A stretch of DNA of 64,000 nucleotides from the NCBI GenBank assembly GCA_905221605.1, contig CAJNDS010002001.1, forward strand, positions 611,001 to 675,000, in the 5' to 3' direction. The number at the start of each line of letters is the position of its first letter. Within the stretch, counting starts at the first letter, position 1. Shown in pieces: positions 29,344 through 47,100 of this stretch. The notes below the pieces were generated by a model. That model searched no databases and was not told where the DNA came from. It saw only the letters and a list, made by a program, of their open reading frames with translations. Origin of the DNA: Symbiodinium natans (lineage: Eukaryota > Sar > Dinophyceae > Suessiales > Symbiodiniaceae). The position numbers and the translations under genes were made by a program.

Positions 29344-29447
29344 CTTTAGGGTTTAGGGTTTAGGGTTTAGGGTTTAGGGTTTAGGGTTTAGGGTTTAGGG
29401 TTTAGGGTTTAGGGTTTAGGGTTTAGGGTTTAGGGTTTAGGGTTTAG
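29344..29447 (-). repeat. (TTTAGGG)n array supplying a splice acceptor
   Basis: About 14 units ending flush against polymerase exon 1; the exon's acceptor AG is part of the last unit (CCCTAAAG|G in gene sense). Confidence 0.9.
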
Positions 29448-30029
29448 GAGACTTCTGGGTTCATTGCTTCGGGTTTTTGAGCTTGCAAGAGGGTGTAGGC
29501 TTCTTACCCACGGCTCTAAAACATCTTTTTGTTGGGAGTCCCTAAGACCCGAAACCCCAAACCCCAAACCCTAAACCCTAAACCCTAGGCCCTAAACCCT
29601 AACCCTTTTTGGGGGCTTTGGGTTTTACAAGCTGTGGGGGCTTGGGGTTAGGTTTAGGGATACGGACTGGCTTATTTTGGGTTGAAGTAAAGTGTTTCGG
29701 GGGCGATTCTCAGGCAGCGTCGTAATCCCTCACAGTCTCTAAGCCCCAAGCCCTCAGCCCTAAGCCCTAAACCCAAACCCAACTTCGAAAGCCCAAAGCC
29801 ACTTTCTTCCGAGAAGCTCCTAAAGCTCCTAAGGTCCTAAGCGCGCTGTAGCCCCTATAAGGCCCATAGCACTTAGGGTTTAGAGTATAGGGTTTAGGGT
29901 TTAGGGTCACACACCCTCCAAACCCGGCCCAAACCCAGTTCAGGAACTTGTTCGTAAGTCGTAAGTTTTCGGGGGGGGGGGGGGGGGGGGTGTCCCACTC
30001 CCTAAACCCTAAACCCTGAACCCCCACCA

Positions 30030-30975
30030 AACTCATCATGGGCGATCTCTCCGCACGACCCTCACGGAGCGAAGCCAAGGCGATGCACGACCACTCTTCA
30101 AGGGCCACTACCAGGGGTCCTCTCACTGGCAGCTAAATTGTAGAATTGATGTGGACAGCGCCGTACTCATGTTAGCGCGTGCAACCTGAAAAGGGCGTGC
30201 AACAGCGTGAAGTGGTTGGGAGTCCTTGCAGTTGCTTTTCAAGCAACGCAGCTGCATGTCCCTCGCTTCACCCGTGTCAATACTTGCGTCAGTCTCCTCT
30301 GGTTCCTCTTCAAAACTCGAGAGCATCAAAACTTCCTCTGGTTTCTCTGGCTTTTTTGATGAAGCAATGACGCCTCGGAGCTCGGCGAGAGCACTTCCTC
30401 TGGTTCCGCCTCGGAGGTCGGCAAGAGCGGCATCAAAACTTCCTCTTGCTGCTCTGCGACCTTGGCGAAGAGCCTCCTTGTGGCCCACTCGGCGGTCCAA
30501 GATTCGACGTCCGACTGCGACACCCTAAACCCTAAACCCTAAACCCTAAACCCTAAACCCTAAACCCTAAACCCTAAACCCTATGAAGGGGGAGGGGAGT
30601 TGGCAGAAAGGAGGAGGTCAAGGCTGAAGACCTGTTGCTCTCCCACCCTCTGAAGACGGAGCACAAACCTCATCCACACCTTACGAGGGGCCCGGAGTTA
30701 GGGTTTAGGGTTTAGGGTTTAGGGTTTAGGGTTTAGGGTTTAGGGTTTAGGGCCTAGCTTAACGTTGCGGGGTGCCCTCTCGAAACATTCTTGGAATGTC
30801 TACTTGTGTGGACCGACCCCAAATCCCCAAACCCTAAAACGCCTTAGGCGGTTTAGGGTTTTTGGGGTTTAGGGTTTAGGGTTTAGGGCAACGTGCAGCC
30901 GCCTTGAATTACACCTCTCAAACTGAGCGTGGCCTCGGTCTCCAGCGGGGCATCCCGTTTCATCTCCTGCTCCGC
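30030..30975 (-). CDS. Exon-like segments of an unrecognised gene
   Basis: Several repeat-free minus-strand blocks look coding: about 30900-30975 (AEQEMKRDAPLETEATLSL), about 30600-30690 (WMRFVLRLQRVGEQQVFSL), 30443-30523 (WATRRLFAKVAEQQE), 30123-30335 (EVLMLSSFEEEPEET) and about 30030-30120 (LVVALEEWSCIALASL). The third and fourth join in frame if 30336-30442 is removed; that stretch is bounded by direct repeats of GAGGAAGTTTTGATGC with GA...AG ends. I recognise no family. It could be an upstream neighbour of the poly(A) polymerase or its divergent N-terminus. Confidence 0.4.
30336..30442 (-). other. Probable 107-nt GA-AG intron with direct-repeat ends
   Basis: GAGGAAGTTTTGATGC occurs at both ends. 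Removing one copy plus the interior restores one frame across QQE|EVLM, while leaving it in shifts the frame. Confidence 0.55.
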
Positions 30976-32053
30976 ACTCCCTAAACCCTAAACCCTATAC
31001 CCTATGCCCCAAACCCTAAACCCTAAACCTCCTAAACCCTTAAAACCCTAAACCCTAAACCCTAAACCCTGAACCCCTAACCCTAAACCCTAAACCCTAA
31101 ACCCTAAACCCTAAACCCTAAACCCTAATTATGCATTGGAAGTTCCAACCTTCAAGGGTTCGGGGTTTCGGGTTTAGGTCTTGGAGTTTAGGGTTTAGGG
31201 TTAGGGGTTTCGGGTTTAGGGTTTGGGGATTGGGGTTTAGGGTTAAGGGTTTAGGGTTGAGGGATTCGAGTTTAGGGTTTGGGGTTTAGAGTTTAGGGTT
31301 TAGGGCTCGGGGTCTGTCTATATAAGCTTGTAGGGGTCTACAGGCTTAGGGTTTAGGAAGAACTTCAAGGTTTAGAAGTTCTGACTTTAGAGTTTCAGAT
31401 TTAGAAGCTTGGTGTTTACTTGGGAGTTTTCGGCTTCTGGAAGTTTAGAGTTTCAGGTTTAAGGATTAGGCGCTCGAAGCTTAAATGTTGCAAGGGCTTG
31501 AGGCCCTTTATGAAAGCCTAAACCCTACCTGCACACCCAAGGGCCCCCTAATACCTTAATAAGGGCCACGAAGGTACGTTAATGGGGGCATTGAGGGCCC
31601 TAAACCCTAAACCCTAAACCCTAAACCCTAAACCCTAAACCCTAAACCCTAAACCCAAAGGGTACTTTGGGGGTGCAGGTAAGGTCGGCGTCGACAGCCT
31701 TTTTCCACCGACCGCAGTCACAGGCTCGCAGATTGCAAGCTCTACACGGTAAGGTCAGGGCTTGGGGCTAGGCTGGCTAGGCTGGCTAGACTCTAAACTT
31801 AAACCCGTGAACCCTATTATAACCCCCGTAAGCTCTGCATTTTAACTGAAGTCCGAAGGGGAAGTCCGCTCCCACACCCTGAACCCTTAGTTGGGCCATC
31901 TTGCCGGGGGTGTAGGGTTTTTAGGGTTTAGGGTTTAGGGTTGAGGGTAGAATCCCAAATTGACCAGCTGAGCTCTAGGACAAAACAGGTCAACCTGAAG
32001 GTTACCTGCGTCGCACATCTCTTGCGCCAACCCCAACACCAAAAACTCCAAAC

Positions 32054-32190
32054 CCCTAAACCTAAACCCTAAACCCTAAACCCTAAACCCTAAACCCTAA
32101 ACCCTAAACCCTAAACCCTAAACCCTAAACCCTAAACCCTAAACCCTAAACCCTAAACCCTAAACCCTAAACCCTAAACCCGAACCCCTA
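32054..32190 (+). repeat. (CCCTAAA)n array, retrotransposon target
   Basis: About 19 units ending in degenerate CCCCTAA units where the LTR element begins; the array resumes at 42103 on the other side. Confidence 0.95.
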
Positions 32191-32197
32191 ACCCCTA

Positions 32198-32418
32198 TGC
32201 GGAGCTGCTGCTGGTATTGTAGAAAAGAGTTAGTGTTGGGAGTTGGAAGGGTTAATGAACCCGGAAAACATGTTTGGCTCAAGACTGGGCCATGTGCCTG
32301 GTAGTAAAAGGTGAGTGCCCTGCGGTTTGGGTTTGTTGTGTGGTTGATCCAGGGAAATCAAGGGTTTCTGTTGGGGTTGACTGTTTGGTTTCTCGTCCCC
32401 CTTCGGTTTCCCCCCGTA
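32198..32418 (+). repeat. 5' LTR
   Basis: Starts TGCGGAGCTGCTGCTGG and ends TTTCCCCCCGTA; 220 of 221 bases match the 3' LTR. It begins TG as expected but ends TA rather than CA. The exact right edge is set by where the two copies stop matching. Confidence 0.93.
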
Positions 32419-32430
32419 GGTTATGAGCCC
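32419..32430 (+). other. Primer-binding site, tRNA-Met anticodon-arm type
   Basis: GGTTATGAGCCC directly follows the 5' LTR. Its complement, GGGCTCATAACC, reads as an anticodon stem-loop with CAT, as in a methionine tRNA. Drosophila copia is known to prime with a 5' half of initiator tRNA-Met annealed at this region, so half-tRNA priming is inferred here. Confidence 0.6.
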
Positions 32431-32479
32431 AAATTAGGCTCCCTGTGGGTTGGTTAAGATTTTGTCTTTGTTTGGTGCC

Positions 32480-32695
32480 ATGGATATGATGTGGCGTCGA
32501 TCTGAACCTGGACCATTATCGGCGGCCAATGATGCCGAAGAAAATCGTGGTGATGGGGGTGAAGAACGACAACAAATGGTACAGGCGCTGACAGATGGTA
32601 GGGAGGTTGCAATGATACAACCAACGTCTCAGGTGGAAAACGAAGTGGTTCCGGGTTCCAGCAGCGAATCCTTTCTGGAGCGAGCGGGCTCATGA
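32480..32695 (+). CDS. Retrotransposon gag, N-terminal piece
   Basis: First ATG (gccATGg) after the primer-binding site; 71 codons beginning MDMMWRRSEPG, ending at TGA 32693. Family-typical gag text continues in another frame: just upstream of 32700 the plus-one frame reads NPFWSERAHEEM, so the true gag probably switches frame near 32660, where one extra base relative to an intact frame would explain it. Confidence 0.65.
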   Translation: MDMMWRRSEPGPLSAANDAEENRGDGGEERQQMVQALTDGREVAMIQPTSQVENEVVPGSSSESFLERAGS

Positions 32696-32699
32696 AGAA

Positions 32700-34037
32700 A
32701 TGAGACTGAGGCAATCAAGGCCAGCAAGTCTCCCTGCGAGCGGAGGGGATAGAAGTGGTGAAGAAACAAGAAGGCCACCGTCGTTGCCAGAACTTCGGGA
32801 TCGGGAACCTGTCCCAGCTGAGAGGCCATCGTCAGGTTTGATGGGCCAGATGGAAAGAGGTAATATCGGTGAGACACAAGGCGAGGAAGAGCTTATTCCT
32901 GATCTGAGTGGTGAAGAACAAGGTGAAGATATGGCGGTGGTAAAGCGTGCGCTGAAAGAGTTGCTTGTGCAAACAAAGGAGCTGGGGAACAGGTTGCATC
33001 GGGTGGAGGAGAAAAGCTATACCTCTGCTGCATCTGGGTCAGCTTCGAGAGCACGGAGCACTGGAGTGGTGGACGCAAATGCTGCATATCCTTTGGGAAT
33101 GACTCCAGAGAAGCAGTACCTGCCAGCACAAGTTTTCTACACTGATGGTATGGGTGGTTTCTGGACTGTGTTGCCTGATGGGACATGGCTGCCGATTGAG
33201 GGCTACGACCTTCCAAAGGGTTGTGACCTTCAACCCTTGCCTGAGCCCAGGAAAGGGGATGTTCACGTGGAGGATGAGAAGGAAGTGCCAATGGTGCACG
33301 TAACTGAAGGGAAGAAACCCTCCAGATTGCCTCCATTGAATTACCCCATGGGAGGTTCTGCAAGTGGTGGATATGCAAGTGGACCACCTGGTTTAACACA
33401 TGTTCCGATTACTTCCTTGCCGTCAGGCGTTGATGGTTCTGCCGCACTGTTGGGAAATCAGCCCGGTTTTGTTTCAGCTCGGGAAACTTCAGCGCAAGAG
33501 AACTCAGCAGGATCGGGTGGATATACAATGGTAGATGATGTTCCATATCGGTGGAAAATGATTGCTGGGAAGTTGGAATTAGAAAAGGTTCCGCTCACAG
33601 TTTTTACGCCCGGAATGGGACATGGACTGCCTCAAGGGCCTGGTGGAAGGGTCAGCTTACCTCCTGGAGCGGTGGTGCCACGTGGTATGCCAAACATTGG
33701 TGATAGTTCTGGAACTGAACGTCCGGAGGCTCTTGGGAAGCATGTGATGAGCCTTCCTACTTTGGCAGACTATACATCAAGCAATCCGACGGCACTAGGT
33801 GATTGGATCGCAATGATCGAGCCAATGCTGTCTTCGCTGACAGATACAGGAAGAGTGTGGTGGCAATCCGTCTATACAAAGGCGTATGAGGCGTACGCCA
33901 AATGGTTGAGTGTCCCTCAGTGGAAAGGTTGGGCATCAAGGCTGAGCTGGAAGGGCTCAAGGGGGTTCGAACTGTGCATGTTTTGTTGGAGCAGAGAGCG
34001 GTGTCTTTGCTGCTACAGGCGATTCCGGAGAGATTGA
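32700..34037 (+). CDS. Retrotransposon gag, main ORF
   Basis: A 445-codon ORF; the same frame is open from 32616. Hydrophilic N-terminal part, a likely coiled coil (VKRALKELLVQTKELGNRL, residues about 81-99), a Gly/Pro-rich middle and a capsid-like end with WWQSVYTKAYEAYAKWLSV (about residues 385-403). From residue about 405 the sequence stops resembling gag; the continuation (SVERLGIKAELEGL) is in the minus-one frame, the next ORF. The break lies in GTGTCCCTCAG at about 33910-33920, where one missing C would explain it. Confidence 0.8.
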   Translation: MRLRQSRPASLPASGGDRSGEETRRPPSLPELRDREPVPAERPSSGLMGQMERGNIGETQGEEELIPDLSGEEQGEDMAVVKRALKELLVQTKELGNRLHRVEEKSYTSAASGSASRARSTGVVDANAAYPLGMTPEKQYLPAQVFYTDGMGGFWTVLPDGTWLPIEGYDLPKGCDLQPLPEPRKGDVHVEDEKEVPMVHVTEGKKPSRLPPLNYPMGGSASGGYASGPPGLTHVPITSLPSGVDGSAALLGNQPGFVSARETSAQENSAGSGGYTMVDDVPYRWKMIAGKLELEKVPLTVFTPGMGHGLPQGPGGRVSLPPGAVVPRGMPNIGDSSGTERPEALGKHVMSLPTLADYTSSNPTALGDWIAMIEPMLSSLTDTGRVWWQSVYTKAYEAYAKWLSVPQWKGWASRLSWKGSRGFELCMFCWSRERCLCCYRRFRRD

Positions 34038-35620
34038 AGACCGAGATCGTTTCCACTCGAATGTTGGGGTCGGTGATGATATTTTACAAGTTGCTGACAG
34101 TTTACCAACCAGGTGGAGCAAACGAGCGCAGCACAATGTTAAACTTCTTGGCGCAACCATCCTCAGCGACCTCGATCTCAGAGGCTATTAAGGGAGTGCG
34201 ACAATGGGCGCAATGGCGTTCCCGGTTAAGGGAGCTGCGAGCATCCGAGCCGGATGCTACCTTGCTTATCAAGGGATTGGATGCTTTATCATCCGCGTTG
34301 CTGGCAAAACACCCTACGGTGCATTTCAGAGTGGCATCCTTCCGGGAGAAATTGGGGGTGGACTACTCGCCGACCTCTGAAACTGCGACACAACTAGCTG
34401 AAATGTTACAAGCAGAATTCGAACTGCTATTGCATAGCGCTGGTGAACAAGAGGTGAAGCAGGACTCGGACGCCAAGAAAAGGGCCAGGTTAAACAAGGC
34501 CCAAAAGGGAACTGGTGACGAGACGGAGGAGGGTGACAAAGGCAAAGGGAAAGGAAAAAGGTACAGCGGAGATGGTGAACGTCCTTTCTGTTGGATATAT
34601 GGGAAGACAGAAGCAGGCTGCAAGTTCGGATCACGTTGCAAATTTCGCCATGACAAGGACTCCCTGGAGCGTGGAAGATGTTTTGAATGTGGGGCCATTG
34701 GCCATTTACAGCCGCAGTGTCCATACAAAGATGGTGTAAGTTCCAATGCGGACTCAAATCCTGAAAGGAATAGATCTAAAGGGAATTCTCCCAAAGGGGG
34801 AAAGGGCGGCAAAGGTGCAAAATGGGGAAATGCCAAAAAGGCAGAAGTGGCTGAAGTGGGAGATGAGATGGCTAATGCGGGATTGGATAAAGGTTCTGCA
34901 AGTCCCTCATCACCATCAACACCCAATCAGGTCCTTGCTGAAGCGTTAGAAGTGCTGAAATCTATGAAGCTGTCATCAGCGCAGTCAGCATCAAGCGGGG
35001 ATCCCAGTCGAATGTTATGTGACTCTGGATTATTTCAGCAGGAAGGGAGAGTGGCGTTGGTGGATACAGCTGCTACGCATCTTGTGCGGACGCTTTTTCC
35101 ATGGGAATGTTTACCCGACACTACTGTTATGGTGCAAAGCGCGCTTGGTGGTGTGACAATGAGGATTACAGAGAAAGGGACGTTGATTAGGGAAGACAAT
35201 GGGCCCCTGATTATCCCTCTCTGGTTGATTTTGGAGTTTGGGGCGAACCTCACCGTGATCAATGGGATGTGTCACGTGAGTGCAAAATCTTCGCTGGACC
35301 AACTCTTATGGTTTGAACATGGCTGTTTGGTTATGGATTACAAAACAGCTGAAAAAATGGTTTTGCATGCTGAAAGGCAGCGTGCGTCGTTGTCCCATTC
35401 TCAATGGAGGAATGGAAGGGCGGACTGTGGAGTCGGTTCGTCTGATGCCACGTTGTTGCCGAAGCAGAAGGCCGAGGAGTATGCGTTCTACATGTGGCCA
35501 GGGTTTCTGACACCAATGAGTGTTCGGGAATGGGCATGTTGGACTCGGGAGCATCACATCCTCTCAGATCACTTCGTCCTGGTGAACAGCTTCCGCAGCA
35601 AAAGGTGTTGGTGTCTTTAG
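33902..35620 (+). CDS. Retrotransposon gag C-terminus and first protease-like domain
   Basis: A 572-codon ORF overlapping the previous one by 136 nt. Capsid-like helices occupy residues 1-200. A basic stretch precedes a CCCH zinc finger (C230-x9-C-x5-C-x3-H) and a CCHC zinc knuckle (C260-x2-C-x4-H-x4-C), both nucleic-acid binding and normal for gag. Residues about 385-455 read VDTAATHLVRTL and then a beta-rich stretch that parallels the true protease at the start of the next ORF, but with DTAA in place of the catalytic DSGA. The last about 45 residues are out of frame; the element continues in the minus-one frame. Confidence 0.8.
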   Translation: MVECPSVERLGIKAELEGLKGVRTVHVLLEQRAVSLLLQAIPERLKTEIVSTRMLGSVMIFYKLLTVYQPGGANERSTMLNFLAQPSSATSISEAIKGVRQWAQWRSRLRELRASEPDATLLIKGLDALSSALLAKHPTVHFRVASFREKLGVDYSPTSETATQLAEMLQAEFELLLHSAGEQEVKQDSDAKKRARLNKAQKGTGDETEEGDKGKGKGKRYSGDGERPFCWIYGKTEAGCKFGSRCKFRHDKDSLERGRCFECGAIGHLQPQCPYKDGVSSNADSNPERNRSKGNSPKGGKGGKGAKWGNAKKAEVAEVGDEMANAGLDKGSASPSSPSTPNQVLAEALEVLKSMKLSSAQSASSGDPSRMLCDSGLFQQEGRVALVDTAATHLVRTLFPWECLPDTTVMVQSALGGVTMRITEKGTLIREDNGPLIIPLWLILEFGANLTVINGMCHVSAKSSLDQLLWFEHGCLVMDYKTAEKMVLHAERQRASLSHSQWRNGRADCGVGSSDATLLPKQKAEEYAFYMWPGFLTPMSVREWACWTREHHILSDHFVLVNSFRSKRCWCL

Positions 35621-38600
35621 CTGTTGGATCTCGGGAGATGTGTATTACCCCAGGTGGGACCCTGGTAACTCCTGAAATGGTAGATCCACTGGTGCCAATT
35701 GGCAAAGCGAGCGCCTTGGTTGGTCTCAGAGTTCAGTGGCGTGGTGGCAAGTGCACAGCCTCACATCCTGTTCTGGGAGAACTTCGCGTTCGTGATCTGA
35801 ATGGGTGCCCTTGTTTGGAAAAGGAGGTGGCGCTTCAGATCATTGATGAAATGGATTGGTGTTCACCAAAGCAAGCATTGAAGGTGGCACGTATGGTTCA
35901 AGGGTGTCCGAATACGGACAACGAGGTGGCTGTAAAAGCGTCGTTGCAAAGCGCAGCGCGGACAGCGTCAGCGAATGAGGAGGAGTTCGTCCAGGCATGC
36001 TGGCGGTTTCTTCGGTGGTATTATGGGGATATACCAGAAAATATGCTGATGGAGCTGTTGCCACGTGGAGATATTGCGGCGCTGCCTTTCAACCGTCATA
36101 AAAGGAGACGGCTGGCACGAGCAAAAAGGGTGGTGGTACACCTATTTTCGGGAAAACAAAAATGGCATTTTCCCAGTCGGGATGTGGAGGTACTGGAGCT
36201 GGATTTGAAGAAAGGCGGTGACCTACATAATTCGAGCGTCTGGAAGTATCTTCTGCATCTGGCGGCTGAAGGAAAGGTGGTTGCTGTGGTTGGAGGACCT
36301 CCATGCAGGACAGTGTCAAGGTTGAGAGGTGAAGACGGTGGTCCACCTGTATTACGCCGACGCTGTGGGCCTGAACGGTTGGGATTAAAGAGTCTTCCTT
36401 GGCCACATCAAGAATTAGCTCAAAAGGATGGTGTTTTACTTCTGAAGATGCTTTTCCTATATGACGTGGCGGTGCATTCAAGGTGTGGAACTGCTGAAGT
36501 CATCAATGGGAGTTCTGTCTTCTTTGGTATGGAAAGCCCTGGGGACCCTGAACTCATAGGGAAGGATTTCTCTCAGAACGGCAAAACGGTCTTGAGTGCT
36601 GAGGATCTGGTGGATGGTTCTCAGGAAGGGCTCTCAAGTCCTACCTTCTGGAGTTGGCCAGAGGTGAAAAGCTTTTGTGAGCGTTATGGAATGTACGCTG
36701 CACATTTTGATCAAGGAGCATTGGGACATGCTCTGGTGAAACCTACGACTTTCCTGGTGTCTGATATGGAACTGTGGGAATCGTTGGAACAGGTTCGCGT
36801 GGTTGTTCCGTGGTCGGCAACATTCGCTTCTACCCTGGAAGAACGTATTGGACAATCCTCCATATGGGCGCGATGGGCGTTTGGATTGGTTAAAAGAATA
36901 CGTCACAGGTTGGCACAATGGTTGCACGAGAGCGATGCTGAACGGGAAGCTACGGTGTTAAAAAAGGGAGAACGAGAAGGGACGTTACGGAGGTTGACAG
37001 CTGAGGAGCGAGCTTTCCGTGACCATTGCCTAAGGGGGCATATTCCTTTCAGACGTGATTGTCAAATTTGTGTGTCTGCCGCTGGCAAAGAGCGTCGCCA
37101 TTTGAGGCGGAAGCATGGGGATGCTTACACTTTATCATTGGACTTAGCGGGTCCATACAAGTGTTCAAAGGATGCTCACCAGCAGAAGCCACGACACGCT
37201 GTTATTGGTGTGTATCAATTTCCAATGTTGGATCCCAATGTGGGTCGCCCTCCAGAAAAGGAGGAAGATGCGGATGAGGTGGAAGATCAGGTGGCAGATG
37301 AAGGTGCTGGTGTCGGAGAATGGTTAGGCGATGCAGTCGCTAACTTCGAGGAGGAAGACTCTGCGCCGGTGGAACCTGCGCCAGTTCTGGAGGCAGAGGT
37401 GTTAAAAATCCAAGCTTCTGAAAAATCCTGGAAGGAACTGAGGGACCATTTGACCCAACCTGTCCGTATGATCAACTTCGTTATGGTGGAGCCGATTGTG
37501 GATACACAGCAAACAACTGTTTTGTCGGCGGTTCAAAGAATGATGGTGCGCTTGCAGAGACATGGGTATCCGGTGTTGAGAATCCACTCAGATCGAGCGG
37601 GGGAGTTTGTCAATGCACGCTTCCGGTCCTTTTGTGAAACTCGTCTGATATACAGGACCACTGGTGATCCTGGAGTCCCGCAAACAAATGGGCGCGCTGA
37701 AGCATGTGTGGGTTTATTCAAACGTGGTGTGAGGTCGCTCTTAAAGGAGGCGCGACTCGGGCCGGCGTACTGGGCACTGGCTGCTCGCCATTGGTCAATG
37801 TTACGGTGGCAGAAAGCTGAAAGGGAGTTGGGTTTGAAACCGAAAGCATTGCTTCCCTTTGGTGCTCAGATTCAAGTCAAACGTCGTCCGTGGGAGTTGC
37901 TGGGTCCGGATGGAACAAAGAAAGGTCGGCAATGGGTCGATCGTACGCAGCCCGCGCTTCTTTTGGGTCCATGCGATGACCTACCTGGTGGTTATTGGGT
38001 GGAAGCTCAAGGGACTGCCAAAGATCCGGATGAACTGGTGTTATTTCCCTGCACTACGATTTTTTCCAATATAAAGGAACCGCCTGCATTGGAGCTGGAA
38101 GGGGTGGTAGAAGAACAGGAGCCTTCTCCTCCGGAGCATCGTCTCAAGGGGAAAAAACCAGCGCTTCGGTTCGCTGATGAGGAAGGTCCTCCTTTACCTC
38201 CGCCTCGCGATCCTCCAGCTCACCATCGGTTAAAGGCAAAAAGCCCGGCCTCTTCACTGCGTGGTCATGTGGGCTCTTTGCGCTTGCTTCGCAAGCGGGG
38301 GGAGAGTCCGCCCTTAGAAATTTTCGAGGATGACATGCAGGGTTTGGGGGAGCTGGAAGAAAATGCAGATGTTGAGGACAATGTTCCTGGTGATGAGTAT
38401 TGGCCGACATGCTGTTCTCCTCATGAAAATGCTTATTTGGTCTGCAAAAGTGAGACTGCCGAGGATGGAACACAGTTGGAAAAAGAAGAACAAAAAGCCA
38501 AGTCAATGTATGAAAGGTCTATGTATGATTACGTGGACTGTGAGGAGCTTTTGGAAGGGATTGTATACCCAAAGAGGGTGAATCGGAGAGGTGGTATCAA

Positions 38601-41600
38601 CAATTGGTGCACAAGCACGCGAGCTCTGGTGTTGGGCCACTATACTCATGGCGGAGTGTGTGGTATTACAAAAGAGACCCATCGAAGGCCATGGCTATGT
38701 CGTTATTTGACATCATTCGTGAGGCACCACAATCCTGAAGCCAAATTTTCTGCTCTTCAGATCTCGTGCAATGCTCCGGTATCATTGCATAGGGATAGTC
38801 ACAATGAAAAGCATTGCTGCAATTATGTGTGTGGCTTTGGTGACTATAAAGATGGTCAGCTGTGGGTTGAGGATGAAAAGGTTTTAGAGGAAGGAGCTGA
38901 AGTGGTGGAGCAATCCTATGGGAAGAAAGTCTTACCTGGAAAATTGGTCGATATCCACTGGAACTTCATGTCGTTCTTTCCGAGAAAACTGCATGGTCCT
39001 ATGCCTTGGAAAGGGAACAGGGTATCCTTGACAGGGTACACACCTGTTTTTATGGAGCGTTTGAGCTACAAGGATAGGTGCTATCTTCTCCAATGCAAGT
39101 TTCCTCTTCCGGAACCACAAGCTGAAGAAGGTGAAAAAAGGAAATGGTTAAAAATGACGCTGAAAGAAACCTCGCTGGACGACCTTGCAGAGGAAGTCGA
39201 CTACGCTGTGTTCGAAGCGCATCAATGGGCTCTAGAGGAGCATTTGAGTATTCGACGCCTAATTGCTGAACAGGAATGTTGCATTTTGGACGAGTTCCAT
39301 GGATCGGCCAATGAGTCGAATGAGGAAAAAGGATCAGAGACTAGAGAATGGCTGGTTAAAGCAAAAAGGGCTGAGGAACAGCTCTCGAAGTTTTTGGTCA
39401 AAGCAGCTCAAGTTCAGCAAATGGTACAAGAAAATACTGCGCTTGAGGCAGCAGAGGAGGTTGAGTTCCTGCAAACAAAAACAATCCCTACACAAGAAGC
39501 CATGCAAGAGCTGGAAAAGTGGAGGGAATCATTGTCGGATGAGGTGGCATCTTTGGTGAAAGAGTTGGAGGTGGTGGAACCAGCAACTCAAGAAAAGCTG
39601 GACAAATTGGCGGAAGAGCCTAACGCACCGGTGATTGAGTACGTTCCCAGTCTGGTGGTGTTTACTCGGAAGCAAGGGACAGGGAGGCGACGTGCCCGTA
39701 TCTGTGCATGTGGAAACTTTATTTCGTCAACGGCAGCTACAGAGTATGAAGGGCCGAGGTCCCTCAGTCGTCACTCGCTGTACGCTCCAGGTTTAGATTC
39801 AACTACATTCAGGTGTCAAGTGAGGCACGCAGCATATATGGTGTGGATCATCGCTGGTTTAGACATTTCCAAAGCTTTTCTGACGGCGCCGATGAATAGG
39901 GCGCAAAGAGAAGGGCGTTTGGTGGTGGTGCAGCCTCCAAGGGCGGCGGTGAAATTGGGTCTTTGCACAAAGGAGGAGCGGTGGATTGTGAGAAAGGCCT
40001 TGTACGGTTTGGCCGCAAGTCCTGCAGCATGGGTGGAGTGGCGAGACCAACGTCTTCAAGGTATGTCTTGGGTGTCAAAGGATGGACGAGCAATGAGCTT
40101 TCAGAGGTCCAACGCAGACCCAAGTCTGTTCCTTATTATGGCACAAGAAAAGCCGGAAGGTGCAAGCAAGTTGGTAGGGACAATGGGTCTTTACGTGGAT
40201 GATTTTTTGATGGCTGGGACTATGACAGTGCTCCGGGAAGCCTTGGAACAGATCAGGAAGGAGTGGAAAACTTCTGAACCCGAGTTCTGTGGTCCAGGCT
40301 GTGGTGATGGATTCCTGAAGTTTTTGGGTGTCCAAATCTGGTATCGAAATGGCAGCTTCTTTCTCAACCAGGAGGACTTCGTGAGAGATTTGCTGAACCG
40401 AAGAGGGTATCAGATTGATGAAACTGGAAAAGGTAGTAACCTGCCAATGGTGAAAGAAACTCCAGGTGAAGAAGAGGAGGTGGATATTCCTTCCTTGCGA
40501 GCGGCTCAAGGTGCCGTAGGGGAGTTCCTCTGGGTGGCAATCAAAACTCGACCTGATTTGGCGTTCTGCACGAGCCAGTTGTCTTTGTGGACATCCCGAA
40601 GGCCGCGATTTGTGGTTAAAAAGGCTGAGGAAGTTTTCCGATACCTTGCTGCAACTCCAACGTTAGGCTTGACGTTCGGAGCAATCGCAACATGCGAAAA
40701 AGAAAGAAATGAGGTGTTGCGTTATGGACGAGGCGTCAAGGTGGTGGAGTCCTACGCGGATGCCAGCTTTGCGGCAGGTGAAAATGAAAAGAGCCACTCA
40801 GGAGCAGTGGTGGTGTGGGGTGATTGTCCAGTGATGTGGGCAACACAAAGACAATCAACGGTGGCTTTAAGTACGGCTGAAGCTGAATTACATGCGTCCA
40901 TAGAGGGAGCAACGATGATTCAGTCGTGCACCCCTATAATTGCCGCTTTGGTTGGAACAGGTGAAGAATCGCTGCAAAAAGTGCTGTATACAGATCCGGT
41001 TTCGACATGCTCAATCATTCAATATCCGGCTGGAAGCTGGAGGACAAGACACCTGAGAATTCGAGCAGCCGGTGTCAGGTCTCTGGTAGACCGTGGTTAC
41101 ATGGTGATAGCGCATCTTCGTGGTGAGTATATGATTGCTGATCTGTTGACAAAATTGATGAGTGGACAGGTTTATGCAAAGCAAAAGGCACTTTGGGGTC
41201 TCCAACTGTTAGTACAAGGAACTGACTTGAAAAGGGCCTCTCTTGCAATGGCGGTCATGATGGTGGCTGCATCGCTGCAAGGGATGGCAACAGGTGGAGA
41301 AGAAGTGTCAGCTGCTGGTTTCTTTTGCTCAGAAGAAGGGGTGTGCCAGGTCGCCAATACATCTACGGTTATGGTTCTGGCTCAAGGTATTGAAATGGTT
41401 ATCAACAATTCAGACCTTGTTGCGTATTTGGTGGCAGCAATCATAATCTGGGAATTGACATGGTGCCTCTTTCGGCGGCTGTACAAATGGCTGTGGATCA
41501 AGAAAGTGGTGGTTATTCCTGCGAGTGCCACTTTGTATACAACAGTGGGTGGGAACTGTATGCACGCAAGCAGTGACTGTGATGTTCTGCGATATTCACA

Positions 41601-41694
41601 GCCCAGGGCTAAGACGCTTTGTAAGCATTGCCTCAAGGATGGCTGGGTGGTGAATGCTGAGTTCCTTGGTGAGGAACGGGCCGCTGGAACGTAA
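35494..41694 (+). CDS. Retrotransposon pol polyprotein with methyltransferase-like and oxygenase-like domains
   Basis: 2066 codons; the nominal start is GTG, so translation must come from upstream by frameshift or in an intact relative. Domains by residue: aspartic protease 15-110 (D17 in LDSGASH); cytosine-C5-methyltransferase-like 205-440 (VVHLFSG 214-220, GGPPC 267-271 with C271, ME 346-347, DQG...KPTTF about 406-419); integrase with HHCC zinc site (H511, H516, C523, C526) and core D550, D700, E736, i.e. D,D35E; 2OG-Fe(II)-oxygenase-like 1030-1200 (H1099, D1101, H1167, R1176); coiled coil about 1290-1390; RVT_2 reverse transcriptase 1390-1640 (D1457, YVDD 1567-1570); RNase H 1745-1880 (D1756, E1796, D1834). 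C-terminal extension: hydrophobic segments 1915-1928 and 1976-1991, then a Cys/His cluster (C2022, H2024, C2029, C2043, H2045, C2046). The catalytic residues of all retroelement enzymes are present. Confidence 0.92.
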   Translation: MARVSDTNECSGMGMLDSGASHPLRSLRPGEQLPQQKVLVSLAVGSREMCITPGGTLVTPEMVDPLVPIGKASALVGLRVQWRGGKCTASHPVLGELRVRDLNGCPCLEKEVALQIIDEMDWCSPKQALKVARMVQGCPNTDNEVAVKASLQSAARTASANEEEFVQACWRFLRWYYGDIPENMLMELLPRGDIAALPFNRHKRRRLARAKRVVVHLFSGKQKWHFPSRDVEVLELDLKKGGDLHNSSVWKYLLHLAAEGKVVAVVGGPPCRTVSRLRGEDGGPPVLRRRCGPERLGLKSLPWPHQELAQKDGVLLLKMLFLYDVAVHSRCGTAEVINGSSVFFGMESPGDPELIGKDFSQNGKTVLSAEDLVDGSQEGLSSPTFWSWPEVKSFCERYGMYAAHFDQGALGHALVKPTTFLVSDMELWESLEQVRVVVPWSATFASTLEERIGQSSIWARWAFGLVKRIRHRLAQWLHESDAEREATVLKKGEREGTLRRLTAEERAFRDHCLRGHIPFRRDCQICVSAAGKERRHLRRKHGDAYTLSLDLAGPYKCSKDAHQQKPRHAVIGVYQFPMLDPNVGRPPEKEEDADEVEDQVADEGAGVGEWLGDAVANFEEEDSAPVEPAPVLEAEVLKIQASEKSWKELRDHLTQPVRMINFVMVEPIVDTQQTTVLSAVQRMMVRLQRHGYPVLRIHSDRAGEFVNARFRSFCETRLIYRTTGDPGVPQTNGRAEACVGLFKRGVRSLLKEARLGPAYWALAARHWSMLRWQKAERELGLKPKALLPFGAQIQVKRRPWELLGPDGTKKGRQWVDRTQPALLLGPCDDLPGGYWVEAQGTAKDPDELVLFPCTTIFSNIKEPPALELEGVVEEQEPSPPEHRLKGKKPALRFADEEGPPLPPPRDPPAHHRLKAKSPASSLRGHVGSLRLLRKRGESPPLEIFEDDMQGLGELEENADVEDNVPGDEYWPTCCSPHENAYLVCKSETAEDGTQLEKEEQKAKSMYERSMYDYVDCEELLEGIVYPKRVNRRGGINNWCTSTRALVLGHYTHGGVCGITKETHRRPWLCRYLTSFVRHHNPEAKFSALQISCNAPVSLHRDSHNEKHCCNYVCGFGDYKDGQLWVEDEKVLEEGAEVVEQSYGKKVLPGKLVDIHWNFMSFFPRKLHGPMPWKGNRVSLTGYTPVFMERLSYKDRCYLLQCKFPLPEPQAEEGEKRKWLKMTLKETSLDDLAEEVDYAVFEAHQWALEEHLSIRRLIAEQECCILDEFHGSANESNEEKGSETREWLVKAKRAEEQLSKFLVKAAQVQQMVQENTALEAAEEVEFLQTKTIPTQEAMQELEKWRESLSDEVASLVKELEVVEPATQEKLDKLAEEPNAPVIEYVPSLVVFTRKQGTGRRRARICACGNFISSTAATEYEGPRSLSRHSLYAPGLDSTTFRCQVRHAAYMVWIIAGLDISKAFLTAPMNRAQREGRLVVVQPPRAAVKLGLCTKEERWIVRKALYGLAASPAAWVEWRDQRLQGMSWVSKDGRAMSFQRSNADPSLFLIMAQEKPEGASKLVGTMGLYVDDFLMAGTMTVLREALEQIRKEWKTSEPEFCGPGCGDGFLKFLGVQIWYRNGSFFLNQEDFVRDLLNRRGYQIDETGKGSNLPMVKETPGEEEEVDIPSLRAAQGAVGEFLWVAIKTRPDLAFCTSQLSLWTSRRPRFVVKKAEEVFRYLAATPTLGLTFGAIATCEKERNEVLRYGRGVKVVESYADASFAAGENEKSHSGAVVVWGDCPVMWATQRQSTVALSTAEAELHASIEGATMIQSCTPIIAALVGTGEESLQKVLYTDPVSTCSIIQYPAGSWRTRHLRIRAAGVRSLVDRGYMVIAHLRGEYMIADLLTKLMSGQVYAKQKALWGLQLLVQGTDLKRASLAMAVMMVAASLQGMATGGEEVSAAGFFCSEEGVCQVANTSTVMVLAQGIEMVINNSDLVAYLVAAIIIWELTWCLFRRLYKWLWIKKVVVIPASATLYTTVGGNCMHASSDCDVLRYSQPRAKTLCKHCLKDGWVVNAEFLGEERAAGT
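36106..36813 (+). other. C5-methyltransferase-like domain inside pol
   Basis: Residues about 205-440 of the pol frame, between protease and integrase, where Copia elements normally have nothing. VVHLFSGKQ resembles motif I (DLFSG.GG), the DVEVLELDLKKGGDL stretch resembles motifs II-III, VVAVVGGPPCRTVSR resembles motif IV with the catalytic Cys (C271), and FFGMESPGDP resembles motif VI with the catalytic Glu (E347, normally ENV). A classical motif VIII/target-recognition region is not obvious. Role inferred: DNA methylation or a derived, perhaps non-catalytic, SAM-binding domain. Confidence 0.6.
38581..39093 (+). other. 2-oxoglutarate/Fe(II) oxygenase-like domain inside pol
   Basis: Residues about 1030-1200, between integrase and reverse transcriptase. 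SLHRDSHNE gives the HxD iron pair (H1099, D1101), GFGDYKDGQLWVED fits the strand after it, and FFPRKLHGPMPWKGNRVSL gives the distal His (H1167) and, nine residues on, the Arg (R1176, in RVS) that binds 2-oxoglutarate. The order and spacing match the double-stranded beta-helix family. The H.D..N pattern resembles TET/JBP DNA oxygenases more than prolyl hydroxylases, but subfamily assignment needs a profile search. Confidence 0.62.
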
Positions 41695-41867
41695 ACTTTT
41701 TTCAAGTTCGAGGTGAAGAAATCCTCAATGGTAAGGGATTCGGCCAATGAGCTGAAGGGTCGTCCTGGAAGACGTAAAACCATAATGTGCATTTCAAGCA
41801 GCTGGCTGCTGCCTAAACGGTGGTTTTTGGCCCAGGATCTGCACCTCCAACGTGCCCTAGGAAATCC

Positions 41868-41881
41868 TAGGACAGGGGGAG
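41868..41881 (+). other. Polypurine tract
   Basis: AGGACAGGGGGAG ends immediately before the 3' LTR, the expected primer for plus-strand DNA synthesis. Confidence 0.8.
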
Positions 41882-42102
41882 TGCGGAGCTGCTGCTGGTA
41901 TTGTAGAAAAGAGTTAGTGTTGGGAGTTGGAAGGGTTAATGAACCCGGAAAACATGTTTGGCTCAAGACTGGGCCATGTGCCTGGTAGTAAAAGGTGAGT
42001 GCCCTGCGGTTTGGGTTTGTTGTGTGGTTGATCCAGGGAAATCAAGGGTTTCTGTTGGGGTTGACTGTTTGGTTTCTCGTCCCCCTTCGGTTTCCACCCG
42101 TA
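41882..42102 (+). repeat. 3' LTR
   Basis: Identical to the 5' LTR except A at 42096. Followed at once by CCCTAAACCC. Confidence 0.93.
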
Positions 42103-43022
42103 CCCTAAACCCTAAACCCTAAACCCTAAACCTAGACTCTGGATCCCATGCGCGGCGCAAACGCGCTCGTGGCCCTGCGGGTACCTTGGGGACGCAGAAT
42201 TTTGGTAGGGTTCAGGGCTTAGGGCTTAGGGCTTTGGGGTTTAGGGTTTAGGGCTTTGGGGTTTAGGGTTTAGGGTCTGGGGTTTGGGGTTTAGGGTCCT
42301 TAACTGCAGTTCATTCCTGTTTTTTGTCGGGGGGGGGGGGGGGGGGTTGCCGTTTAGGCCTTACGGTTTTGGGGTTTGGGTGTGGCTGTGAAGGGGGGTG
42401 TGGGAGCTTCATGGTTGGTATGGGATTGTCGTCAAGGGTATGAGATCCCAGCTTTTTGGTTCATTTAACCGTAAAATGGACACCTCAGGCTTTAAAGGCT
42501 CTAAAGAGGGAGGGGGGGGGGGGGCTCTTGCTAAACTAAGTATATCTATGAGGGACCGATTTTGGGTTTTAGGGTCTAGGGTTTAGGGTAGCCGCGGGTA
42601 GCCTAACTTCTACTCATTCGAACCCATCACCCTGGTCTTTGGGAGGCCTCACAAAGATTCGTCAATATGATGCATCATCACAGAATATGTGGGTACAAGC
42701 GATCACTCCCTATACGAGTACAAGCATGGCAAGGGCCTACCCTGCAATCACTACATCCAGAACCCTAAACCCTAATCAATCTACTTATAGCCAGGGGGTC
42801 CATCCTCGTACTATAGGTTCTTAGCCTTTGAAATGATTCCAGGGAAAGAAAATATGCTCTTGAGGGGGGGGGGTCTCCTTCCAGTACAGACATGAACCCT
42901 AAACCAAAAATCAAAAAGAAGTACACCCTAACCCCAAACCCCAAACCCTTAAGCCAAAACCCCAATCCCCAAACCCTAAAACTTCAACATCCCACAAGGA
43001 GCCTTAAACTCAACACCTTGCA

Positions 43023-44108: not shown

Positions 44109-47100
44109 CTTAGCTGCTCTTGGCGTCCCCCTTTTGGGTTTAGGGTTTAGGGTTCAGCATCTCAAGTTCGAGCATTTACTAGGCCAGCAGTGTGTGTAGG
44201 CAACGGAAAAAAACCCACCCACCCAGAGAATCCCAAAACATTAAGAAAATAAAAAGTTTACATTTCTCATCAGCAAGCCCTGTCCTCCAACCTCCCTCTG
44301 TCATGGAGCATCCTACCCACGAACCATTTCATCGGCCCCCATAGAGGGGCGGGACTTGAAATCCTGAAGCCGGTGAAGGCTCGGTTTTGGTCAAAAATCC
44401 AGAAAACGAGAGACCACCCAGAGCCGTCGATTTCAGTACTAAAAAATCGCATTTTTACTTGGGACCCGGGCCGATCCTGGGGTCCCCCTCATTTTGGGTG
44501 TTTTTGGAGGCAAACTTTCCCTCTCAAGGGGGGGTCGGAGTTTGAGGCAAGGGGGGGTCTCAGAAGACTATTTTGCCTTTAAAATTGAAAAATACGACCC
44601 CCCCTTGACCAAAATTAGGCTGTGAAAAGGTCGCGGGGGCGGCCCTTCATCAGAATTGAGGGTTAAAAACCCTGAAAGACCCTGAAAAACATTGAAAAAC
44701 CATAAAAAACACTGAAAAACTCTGAAAAACCTTGAAAAACCTTGAAAAAGCCAAGGCCCGCACGCGCGCGGGGGCCAGGACAAAGGCCAGACCCTTGAGT
44801 GCCCAACAGGGCCGGTCGATCTGGAAGGGCCAAGGCCAAGGCCTCCCGCGCGCGGGCCAGGACAAGGCCAGACACCCTTGACTGCCCACCAACAGGGCCG
44901 GTCGACCTGGAAGGGCCAAAACCAAGGCCAAGGCCGCCCGCGCGCGGGCCAGGACAAGGCCAGACCCTTGAGTGCCCAACAGGGCCGGTCGATCTGGAAG
45001 GGCCAAAACCAAGGCCGCCCGCGCGCGGGCCAGGACAAGGCCAGACCCTTGAGTGCCCAACAGGGCCGGTCGATCTGGAATGGCCAAGGCCAAGGCCAAG
45101 GCCGCCCGCGCGCGGGCCAGGACAAGGCCAGACCCTTGAGCGCCCAACAGGGCCGGTCGATCTGGAAGGGCCAAAAGGCCAAGGCCGCCCGCGCGCGGGC
45201 CAGGACAAGGCCAGACCCCCTTGAGTGCCCAACAGGGCCGGTCGATCTGGAAGGGCCCAAACCAAGGCCAAGGCCGCCCGCGCGCGGGCCAGGACAAGGC
45301 CAGACCCTTGAGTGCCCAACAGGGCCGGTCGATCTGGAAGGGCCAAAACCAAGGCCCCGCCCGCGCGCGGGCCAGGACAAGGCCAGACCCCCTTAGTGCC
45401 CAACAGGGCCGGTCGATCTGGAAGGGCCAAAACCAAGGCCAAGGCCGCTCGCGCGCGGGCCAGGACAAGGCCAGACCCTTGAGTGCCCAACAGGGCCGGT
45501 CGATCTGGAAGGCCAAGGCCGCCCACGCGCGGGCCAGGACAAGGCCAGACCCCCTTGAGTGCCCAACAGGGCCACTCGATTTTCTGACTATAGGGTTTAA
45601 ATATATATAGGTAAGAGAGGTTTAGGGTTTAGGGTTTAGGGTTTAGGGTTTAGGGTTTAGGGATGTTCCCCTTATACTAGGAGTCCTTCATAGGGATTCT
45701 AGTACCCCCTATTAGAATCCCTATGAAGGACAGTTAGTATAAGGGGAACATCCCAATTTGGAGCCCTTAAGGAAATATGCGGGATTGCCAAAAATGAATA
45801 TCAGGGATTCCAATTTCAAAAGGCTCCGCAATATTCTATTCGCTGATTTTCTTTTGGTTGGGACACCGGGGGTGGGGTGAAGACCGGACGGAGGGGAGGG
45901 GAGGGGAGGAGAGGGGAGGGGAGGGGAGGTTGATTGGGGATGTATATATCTATAGAGAGCGGTTTTTCGGGGCGGAGGGGGTTCATGTAACGGCGGGGTT
46001 GGAGGACCGAAAGACAGAGGACCAGAAGACCCTAAACCCTAAACCCAAAACCCTAAACCCTTAAGACCCAGAAGACGGACAGCCGGAAGAGCAGGAGCAG
46101 GGGAATGGACCAGGAGACAGGAGAAGCAGGGAACCGGAAGAGGGGAGGAAGAAACAAAAGCATCCAAACAACACGATTTTGCTTCGAACATTCCCACCCT
46201 CTTTGGGTAGAGATACTCTGGCGTTGGGCACTCCAGGGATACTCTGGGGTTGGGCACTCCAGGGGGCACTCTGGGACACTCTGAAATTGGGCACTCCACC
46301 AACACTCTGACTCCGGGGACACCAAGGGGTTGGGCACCCTGGGGTTGGGCGAGAAGCAGACCGGGCGAGGAGAAGAGTCGAGTTTAAAATCTAACAGCCC
46401 CACACCGAGGGTGGGGAAAACTATACTGACAAGCCATAAATGGGGGCTTGGGTGAGTTTACCGTCCAGCTTCTTCTTCACGGGAAGGAGCTGTGGATAGT
46501 TCGCTCCCCAGTACCTTACCGACTGAGTTCTGCAAGGAGGAAAAGGCCAGCCCTTAAGTGCTACAGAGGGTTTAGGGTTTAGGGTTTAGGGTTTAGGGTT
46601 TAGGGTTTAGGGTTTAGGGTTTAGGGTTTAGGGTTTAGGGTTTAGGGATAAACTACCCCCCCCCCCACCCCCGCCCAAAAAAAAAGAAGTCAAAGGCTAT
46701 GTGCGCAGCACTTGCTGGAGGTACCTGTCTTGCCAGTTCTCCTCAGAATAGTCGCCCTCGTTCAGGTACCCGCCCATGCCCCCCAACACCTCATCAACGG
46801 CTTGCTTCGCAGCTCTGAAGGTTTTCCAGATGTGAATGTCGATCTGCTCCCCAGGCTCCACGATTTTGGGTCTTTTGAAGCCGGTAAGCCAGTCAAACTT
46901 CAGTGTGGCGATCGCCTCGTGGCTGGTCTTAGGAGGGTAGTTACAAGTTAAAACTTTTTAGCTGCCTTACGAAGAAACCCCAATAAACCCAAAAAGCCTT
47001 AGGATCTAAAGTTACAGGAAAGCACCACAAAGGCCTTGTGCACGTGCGGGTGCACGGAGGTTGCGTTGACGTGGTTGATGGCCGCCTTCGAGCCTCCGAG

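Follow-up and report, generated by a model that had tools for sequence, protein, structure and literature searches.

The window analysed here is a stretch of 64,000 nucleotides from the dinoflagellate Symbiodinium natans (contig CAJNDS010002001.1, positions 611,001 to 675,000), and the subject of this study is a 9.9-kb long terminal repeat (LTR) retroelement situated at 32198-42102 on its + strand. This element is most likely a recent insertion that belongs to a large and old Ty1/copia-type clade in which two enzyme-like domains appear to have been built into Pol, one resembling C5-cytosine methyltransferases (MT) and the other resembling 2-oxoglutarate (2OG)/Fe(II) dioxygenases (OG). At the level of sequence, the order of the domains and their co-occurrence are seen in the loci examined, the residues that are likely to be catalytic are kept, and both domains appear to be under purifying selection like that on the integrase. 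An earlier note on this DNA had proposed that a methylase-like and a base-oxygenase-like domain are carried by one retroelement. The presence of two such domains within a Copia pol is upheld by the motif score of MT and by the invariant OG residues in relatives, both described below.

The two additional domains of Pol

The pol frame is intact (35446-41694, 2082 aa), and its domains follow one another in the order protease, MT, integrase, OG, Copia reverse transcriptase (RT), RNase H. They are positioned as follows, together with a further segment near the C-terminus.

35530..35700, + strand: second retropepsin-like segment, with the motif DSGAS, where the long frame begins; 35% identity to the first such segment; without a Pfam match
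36082..36930, + strand: MT, C5-cytosine-methylase-like domain; pol residues 213-495, between protease and integrase
MT motifs in the window copy: motif IV GGPPCRTVS, with C287 at 36304-36306; motif VI MESP (E363); motif VIII QGALGHALVKPT
37024..38100, + strand: integrase; rve E 0.0017 with the whole frame and 0.00022 with the domain alone, both below the Pfam cut-off
38584..39087, + strand: OG, 2OG/Fe(II)-dioxygenase-like domain; residues 1047-1214, with H1115, D1117, N1120, H1183 and R1192; between integrase and RT
39652..40401, + strand: Copia-type reverse transcriptase (RVT_2); E 7.1e-10, over the cut-off
40486..41235, + strand: RNase H region (YADASFA, ALSTAEAEL), placed by its position after RT and by motifs; without a profile match, limits approximate
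41416..41472, + strand: hydrophobic, membrane-helix-like segment near the pol C-terminus; Kyte-Doolittle mean 2.1 over 19 residues

The motifs YADASFA and ALSTAEAEL are ones that we take to be those of RNase H. RVT_2 gave the only Pfam match over its cut-off in the pol frame; the integrase match is weak and below it, as are the matches of IS481 and IS3 transposase models to the same region. Integrase lies upstream of RT (rve residues 693-744, RT residues 1403-1652), and with this order, LTRs, a polypurine-tract-like stretch, a flanking CCCTA repeat and the RVT_2 match the element has the characters of a Ty1/copia LTR retrotransposon. It shares with Ty1/copia (Pseudoviridae) the order protease, integrase, RT, RNase H, the RVT_2 profile and short LTRs, but differs in that two extra domains flank the integrase and the protease-like segment is doubled.

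Neither MT nor OG of the window copy gave a match up to E 10 in Pfam, PHROGs or NCBIfam. Because the window copy alone goes unrecognised by these libraries, relatives were needed for statements about the domains. All of them come from one genome (759 Mb, 2543 contigs), which was searched for divergent relatives with a pattern for methylase motif IV in which one codon was made unlike that of the window family. The pattern gave 64 matches, against 2 in a backward control, and 12 of the 64 loci were fetched. MT, integrase and OG were found in that order at all 12 of these MT-selected loci (OG E 4.3e-6 or better, 43-kb set). L289, which has frameshifts, was left out of both domain alignments, and L284, with a frameshift before motif IV, out of that of MT; both are counted within the 12. 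L276 is partly masked (N).

Two comparison sets were used for MT: 80 Dcm-type C5 methylases, and 110 members of a C5 group from IMG/VR contigs with a motif VIII of the form YG...KPT (KPT-type). A block score was calculated from five ordered motif blocks of the KPT-type group. The window MT, in which C5-methylase motifs I, IV, VI and VIII are present in order (with PC and a downstream S in motif IV and a Glu in motif VI), has a block score of 28.7 bits, a value reached by none of 3000 shuffles (maximum 11.0). Scores were at most -3.2 for 43 tiles taken from residue 500 of pol onwards, and the median for genuine Dcm-type enzymes (n=81) was 16.8. Decoy open reading frames (ORFs) scored as high as MT in 12 of 612 cases, the eight printed ones being from loci fetched for KPT-type methylases. 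All 11 rows of the MT alignment (the window copy and 10 relatives) scored 21.7-47.8, each over the maximum of 300 shuffles, the scores of the relatives, but not that of the window copy, being inflated by the selection on motif IV.

When the MT family profile was compared with that of the KPT-type C5 family using hhalign, a probability of 78 was obtained (E 1.7e-5) over motifs I to IV; in controls, the KPT-type group and the Dcm-type group gave 98, and the OG family gave less than 2 with either group. Weak library matches were also found among the relatives: to DNA methyltransferase PHROGs in four of five (E 0.02-0.5), to TIGR00675 in two of five (E 0.10 and 0.12), and to PF00145 in one of ten (E 0.046; 13.6 bits, the cut-off being 22; none in the window copy). 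Most of these lie over motif IV, by which the relatives had been chosen; the matches to PHROG 2882 lie over motif VIII, which was unselected. A single-sequence HMM of MT scored 0.6 bits against the KPT-type family, a score reached by 11 of 2000 shuffles and lower than that of unrelated pol tiles (2.2), and was not relied on.

Pairwise identity in the MT alignment is 27-75% (median 37%). There are 32 invariant positions, of which the search pattern itself had dictated six (G283-C287 and T289); those that it had left free include G236, D253, S291, R294, E363, P365, D367, P368, Q423, G424, A425, G427, K432, P433 and T434. With the evidence from the family, the prediction of MT as a divergent C5-cytosine-methyltransferase-like domain stands. 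The KPT-type methylases have the motifs LFAG, PPC, ENP and YG...KPT in the same order as MT, but they are mostly 208-230 aa long among the twelve printed; in MT the spacers are longer, E-S/H/Q-P replaces ENP, and identity to the KPT-type group is 26% over 65 profile-aligned columns.

For OG, the bare HxD..H..R arrangement arises in 696 of 5000 shuffles, so that the motif alone is not significant. The alignment of 12 rows (the window copy and 11 relatives), with pairwise identities of 20-76% (median 26%), contains nine invariant positions, among them H1115, D1117, N1120, H1183 and R1192 (HxDxxN, H, R), and none of the invariant residues was favoured by the selection of the rows, which was made by the MT motif. 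This conservation gives good support to reading their arrangement as that of Fe(II)/2-oxoglutarate dioxygenases, with a metal triad and an arginine that binds 2OG. Kinship with the TET/JBP enzymes is only hinted at: the Tet_JBP model (PF12851) matched the OG of L286 over its catalytic half with 16.4 bits (E 0.0055; curated cut-off 34.9 bits), and this was the one match among 11 OG domains scanned (the window copy, which gave none, and 10 relatives, the OG of L288 being left out). Of the base oxygenase put forward earlier, then, the 2OG/Fe(II) class is retained on the strength of residue conservation, and action on bases remains conjectural, as do the roles of writer and eraser and the self-marking or evasion of silencing that the note had suggested for the pair.

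Comparison of the OG family with YbiX and AlkB gave active-site registers that agree, at scores not above those of shuffles. The PF12851 profile found nothing in four bacterial genomes, where its control was likewise silent. No relevant match was returned by a PDB sequence search with MT and OG of the window copy and relatives, and no match by tblastn of both domains against phages; IMG/VR, searched by back-translated peptides and motif patterns, and GTDB contigs, searched by one pattern, yielded nothing or chance matches.

Co-occurrence and selection among relatives

Loose first-look searches of the genome gave 863 MT and 1372 OG candidates, of which 145 and 150, respectively, were scored. 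The OG search relied on similarity to OG, and its 150 scored candidates were 31-100% identical and stop-free in the matched stretch. For 42 of the first 64 of the 150 OG matches listed, the same strand carries an MT match 1.8-2.4 kb upstream; these pairs include several near-identical copies and are not 42 independent cases. The pairing used 96 listed MT rows (166 matches reported), the remaining rows being compared by eye. Together with the 12 MT-selected loci, these pairs show the co-occurrence in a fixed order for which the earlier note had proposed to search. Random loss of a domain or neutral decay, which it had taken as refuting outcomes, was observed at none of the loci examined; for 22 of the 64 OG matches no MT partner is listed.

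Other Copia lineages were represented by the 30 loci scoring highest for RVT_2. No OG was found in them up to 1.5 kb from the RT match, a stretch that would not take in the position of MT. Six further Copia or Copia-like loci (4.5-5 kb, one partly masked) contained no OG at E 0.1, and the best E value for MT was 0.034. Since no OG was found in the stretches examined of these other Copia loci, the MT and OG pair appears to mark a clade and not to be universal in Copia. In another Copia, L274, the stretch before the integrase at about 2280-2640 looked MT-like by eye (LWASLPS..., WKILTN), but it is without the catalytic Cys and its block score is 0.3, and it was dropped.

Further MT-bearing families were also noted, for example at C114:322284 and C635:373149, with open frames of 3548 and 3702 aa and an identity of about 31-40% to the MT of L279.

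Ka/Ks was estimated for MT, OG and integrase in four pairs of related elements, three with a protein identity of 65-76% and one with 54-57%, giving 12 comparisons. The proportions of nonsynonymous differences (pN 0.15-0.34) and synonymous differences (pS 0.67-0.83) are alike in the three domains. Ks was unsaturated in five of the 12 comparisons, for which Ka/Ks was 0.10 and 0.15 in MT, 0.08 and 0.16 in OG and 0.07 in integrase; with Ks at 1.7-2.4, these ratios are still rough. MT and OG therewith look to be under purifying selection about as strict as that on the integrase, and such selection on both domains is supported by the four unsaturated MT and OG comparisons (0.08-0.16). Among close copies of the window element, 129 of the 130 listed have no stop in MT, and 30 of them show 32 synonymous and 6 nonsynonymous codon changes and 1 stop. 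Because these 30 were picked by protein score, and are biased against amino-acid changes, the claim of selection is based on the divergent pairs.

Termini, gag region and surroundings of the window copy

The remaining features of the element are the following.

32193..32197, no strand: 5' target-site duplication CCCTA; the same 5-mer lies outside each LTR
32198..32418, + strand: 5' LTR, 221 bp; 220/221 identical to 41882-42102
32419..32436, + strand: primer-binding-site-like stretch GGTTATGAGCCC, immediately 3' of the 5' LTR
32480..35620, + strand: gag to protease region, in three reading frames in the window copy; ORFs 32616-34037 and 33890-35620
34670..34747, + strand: zinc knuckle of gag; zf-CCHC_6 E 0.0048 and zf-CCHC E 0.0079, both below the Pfam cut-offs
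35051..35221, + strand: first retropepsin-like segment (DTAAT); aligns with the second at 35% identity (E about 1e-5)
41869..41881, + strand: polypurine-tract-like stretch AGGACAGGGGGAG, immediately 5' of the 3' LTR
41882..42102, + strand: 3' LTR; 1 mismatch in 221 positions against the 5' LTR
42103..42107, no strand: 3' target-site duplication CCCTA, the same 5-mer as at the 5' end

The LTRs and the polypurine stretch mark the element clearly. The CCCTA duplication alone is weak evidence, because the insertion site lies within CCCTAAA repeats. The primer-binding-site-like stretch is, we presume, akin to the half initiator-Met tRNA site of copia. As the LTRs are near-identical and gag is split over three frames, the window copy is young but gag-broken, with pol open. 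Frames that stay open for 3000 aa or longer occur in 28 of 130 close copies among the matches listed, and the 1.5 kb upstream of MT is open in 23 of the 30 best copies, which include the window copy, itself not open.

Across the 130 listed copies of the window family (130 scored of 846 candidates), MT is 98-100% identical, which suggests a recent burst. The two retropepsin-like segments, assigned to that class by motifs (DTAAT, DSGAS) that we take to be characteristic of it, stand in tandem and in different frames in the window copy, and may represent a duplicated protease. The extension of pol after RNase H (41236-41691) contains the membrane-helix-like segment and a Cys/His cluster, and gave no match in Pfam. 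Elsewhere in the window, TTTAGGG/CCCTAAA runs are very numerous and interspersed, in both orientations (e.g. 29143-32190, 10188-10354 and 15187-15865), and the element is inserted in one of them. A GC-rich minisatellite with periods of about 87 and 172 bp is situated at 44750-45580, with open frames on the minus strand.

Possible roles of the pair and their significance

The reading that we favour, and hold tentatively, is that MT and OG act in turn on the complementary DNA (cDNA) of the element and modify its bases. Both domains would be released from Pol and, with the Pol products packaged together, would travel with the cDNA; MT would methylate C5 of a pyrimidine in it, and OG would then oxidise that methyl group. 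In an alternative chemistry, OG would oxidise the methyl group of thymine. New copies would thereby enter the genome with modified bases, which might help their stability, their integration or their escape from silencing. In Breviolum minutum, according to passages of PMC11071213, most repeat classes are enriched for 5-hydroxymethyluracil (5hmU), Mavericks most of all, with some long interspersed nuclear elements (LINEs) excepted; incoming DNA with oxidised pyrimidines might therefore look native. The fuller proposition, that this Copia clade encodes a two-step DNA base hypermodification in Pol, marks nascent cDNA and adds 5-methylcytosine (5mC), 5-hydroxymethylcytosine (5hmC) or 5hmU to the host genome, is doubtful.

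A number of observations weigh against sequential action on cDNA or against the domain assignments from which it proceeds. The MT family gave a probability of 9 with the Dcm-type group in hhalign, and a Dcm-type C5 profile did no better on MT than on shuffles (441 of 2000 reach its score). Motif VI is E-S/H/Q-P, not ENV or ENP as in classical C5 enzymes, no target-recognition domain is evident in MT, and the invariance of motif IV follows from the construction of the search pattern. OG gave no match over the cut-off to curated oxygenase families, and PF12851 gave 0 matches at E 0.001 on the whole genome, its control being likewise silent. Besides the 22 OG matches with no partner among the MT matches listed, about 54 further listed MT rows had, by eye, no nearby OG among the OG matches listed; the latter lack known OGs (L281 and L286) and therefore cannot show that OG is absent, and elements with MT and no OG may exist. 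Three listed MT rows contain a stop. CpG is not depleted in the element, with an observed/expected ratio of 0.68 where the remainder of the window has 0.49, and CpG self-methylation is therefore unsupported. The substrate, moreover, could be RNA or protein instead.

Were RNA the substrate, which we consider unlikely, MT would methylate C5 of cytosine in genomic RNA or in the tRNA primer, as DNMT2 does, and OG would be AlkB-like and reverse or trim the methyl marks, with control of packaging, translation or priming as the outcome. Some C5 methylases, DNMT2 among them, do act on tRNA, a polyprotein carrying MT and OG would meet RNA before cDNA, and the HxD of AlkB is in register with OG in the non-significant alignment mentioned above. 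On the other hand, judged by motifs, MT is closest to the KPT-type C5 group from IMG/VR contigs, the members of which we presume to be DNA enzymes, and the sole hint of an oxygenase family is to Tet_JBP, not AlkB. It is rather improbable that OG is instead a protein or small-molecule hydroxylase, of the prolyl-hydroxylase kind, acting on Gag or a host protein, with MT as the sole nucleic-acid enzyme. The 2OG enzymes are functionally broad, and in YbiX, a PKHD hydroxylase, the H..R end is in register with OG, again in an alignment that is non-significant; YbiX and AlkB, however, both score no higher than shuffles, and the coupling of OG with MT hints that the two share a substrate.

Two further explanations give the domains opposed or no enzymatic roles. 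In one, OG might be an eraser of the TET kind that oxidises 5mC placed by the host on the inserted element, and MT might bind or mask CG sites, so that the two domains would work against each other and not in sequence. Enzymes of the TET/JBP family carried by fungal DNA transposons and Helitrons are thought to counter silencing (PMC12730594, in part), which favours such a role. It is nonetheless improbable, to about the same degree as a hydroxylase, since MT retains the Glu of motif VI and motif VIII, which argues for catalysis, and a Pol product would act mostly before integration. Least probable of all is that one or both folds are non-enzymatic leftovers, kept in Pol for structure or nucleic-acid binding. 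The drift of the domains to median pairwise identities of 26% (OG) and 37% (MT) and the weakness of the profile matches would suit leftovers, but HxDxxN...H...R is kept in all 12 OG rows (five of the nine invariant positions), and all 11 MT rows retain Glu363 together with the KPT motif, and also Cys287, the last by selection of the rows.

Each half of the pair has counterparts in known mobile elements. As set out in passages of de Mendoza et al. 2018 (PMC5890265), C5 methylases occur in Symbiodinium LINE and DIRS elements and in a Klebsormidium Gypsy, and expression of the SymbioDIRS DNMTs in yeast leads to methylation of CG. SymbioLINE-Dnmt, SymbioDIRS-Dnmt3 and KnitGypsy-Dnmt3 resemble the window element in that a retrotransposon of a dinoflagellate or a charophyte encodes a C5 methylase under purifying selection, but their backbones are LINE, DIRS and Gypsy, not Copia, and those passages mention no oxygenase in them. 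They were found through PF00145, a model that does not recognise the window MT; Symbiodinium Copia, the most abundant class, is stated there to be without any DNMT domain, in a count based on PF00145. The fungal elements in the passages of Kojima 2025 (PMC12730594) are alike in being mobile and in carrying a putative base-modifying 2OG/Fe(II) oxygenase. In DNA transposons and Helitrons, however, TET/JBP is a gene beside the transposase, whereas the window OG forms part of a Pol fusion and has a methylase as its partner, and no retrotransposon with a TET/JBP enzyme was found in that survey, as those passages give it. An element with a methylase and an oxygenase in one polyprotein was not found described in the open-access literature, subscription papers and preprints being outside the scope of the search, in keeping with the statement of the earlier note that none was known; the passages of PMC11453091, PMC9998398 and PMC6338049 that were available contain nothing on such a pair.

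Methylase retrotransposons and DNA transposons with TET-like oxygenases are thus known separately, and the Copia Pol with MT and OG would combine both kinds. The MT and OG candidates in this one genome indicate that an abundant enzyme-like family is missed by the standard profile libraries. If active, the pair would make testable both the origin of unusual base modifications on dinoflagellate repeats and the self-marking of cDNA by retroelements; and the two-step pathway, if true, would mean that a retroelement writes the base chemistry of its host.

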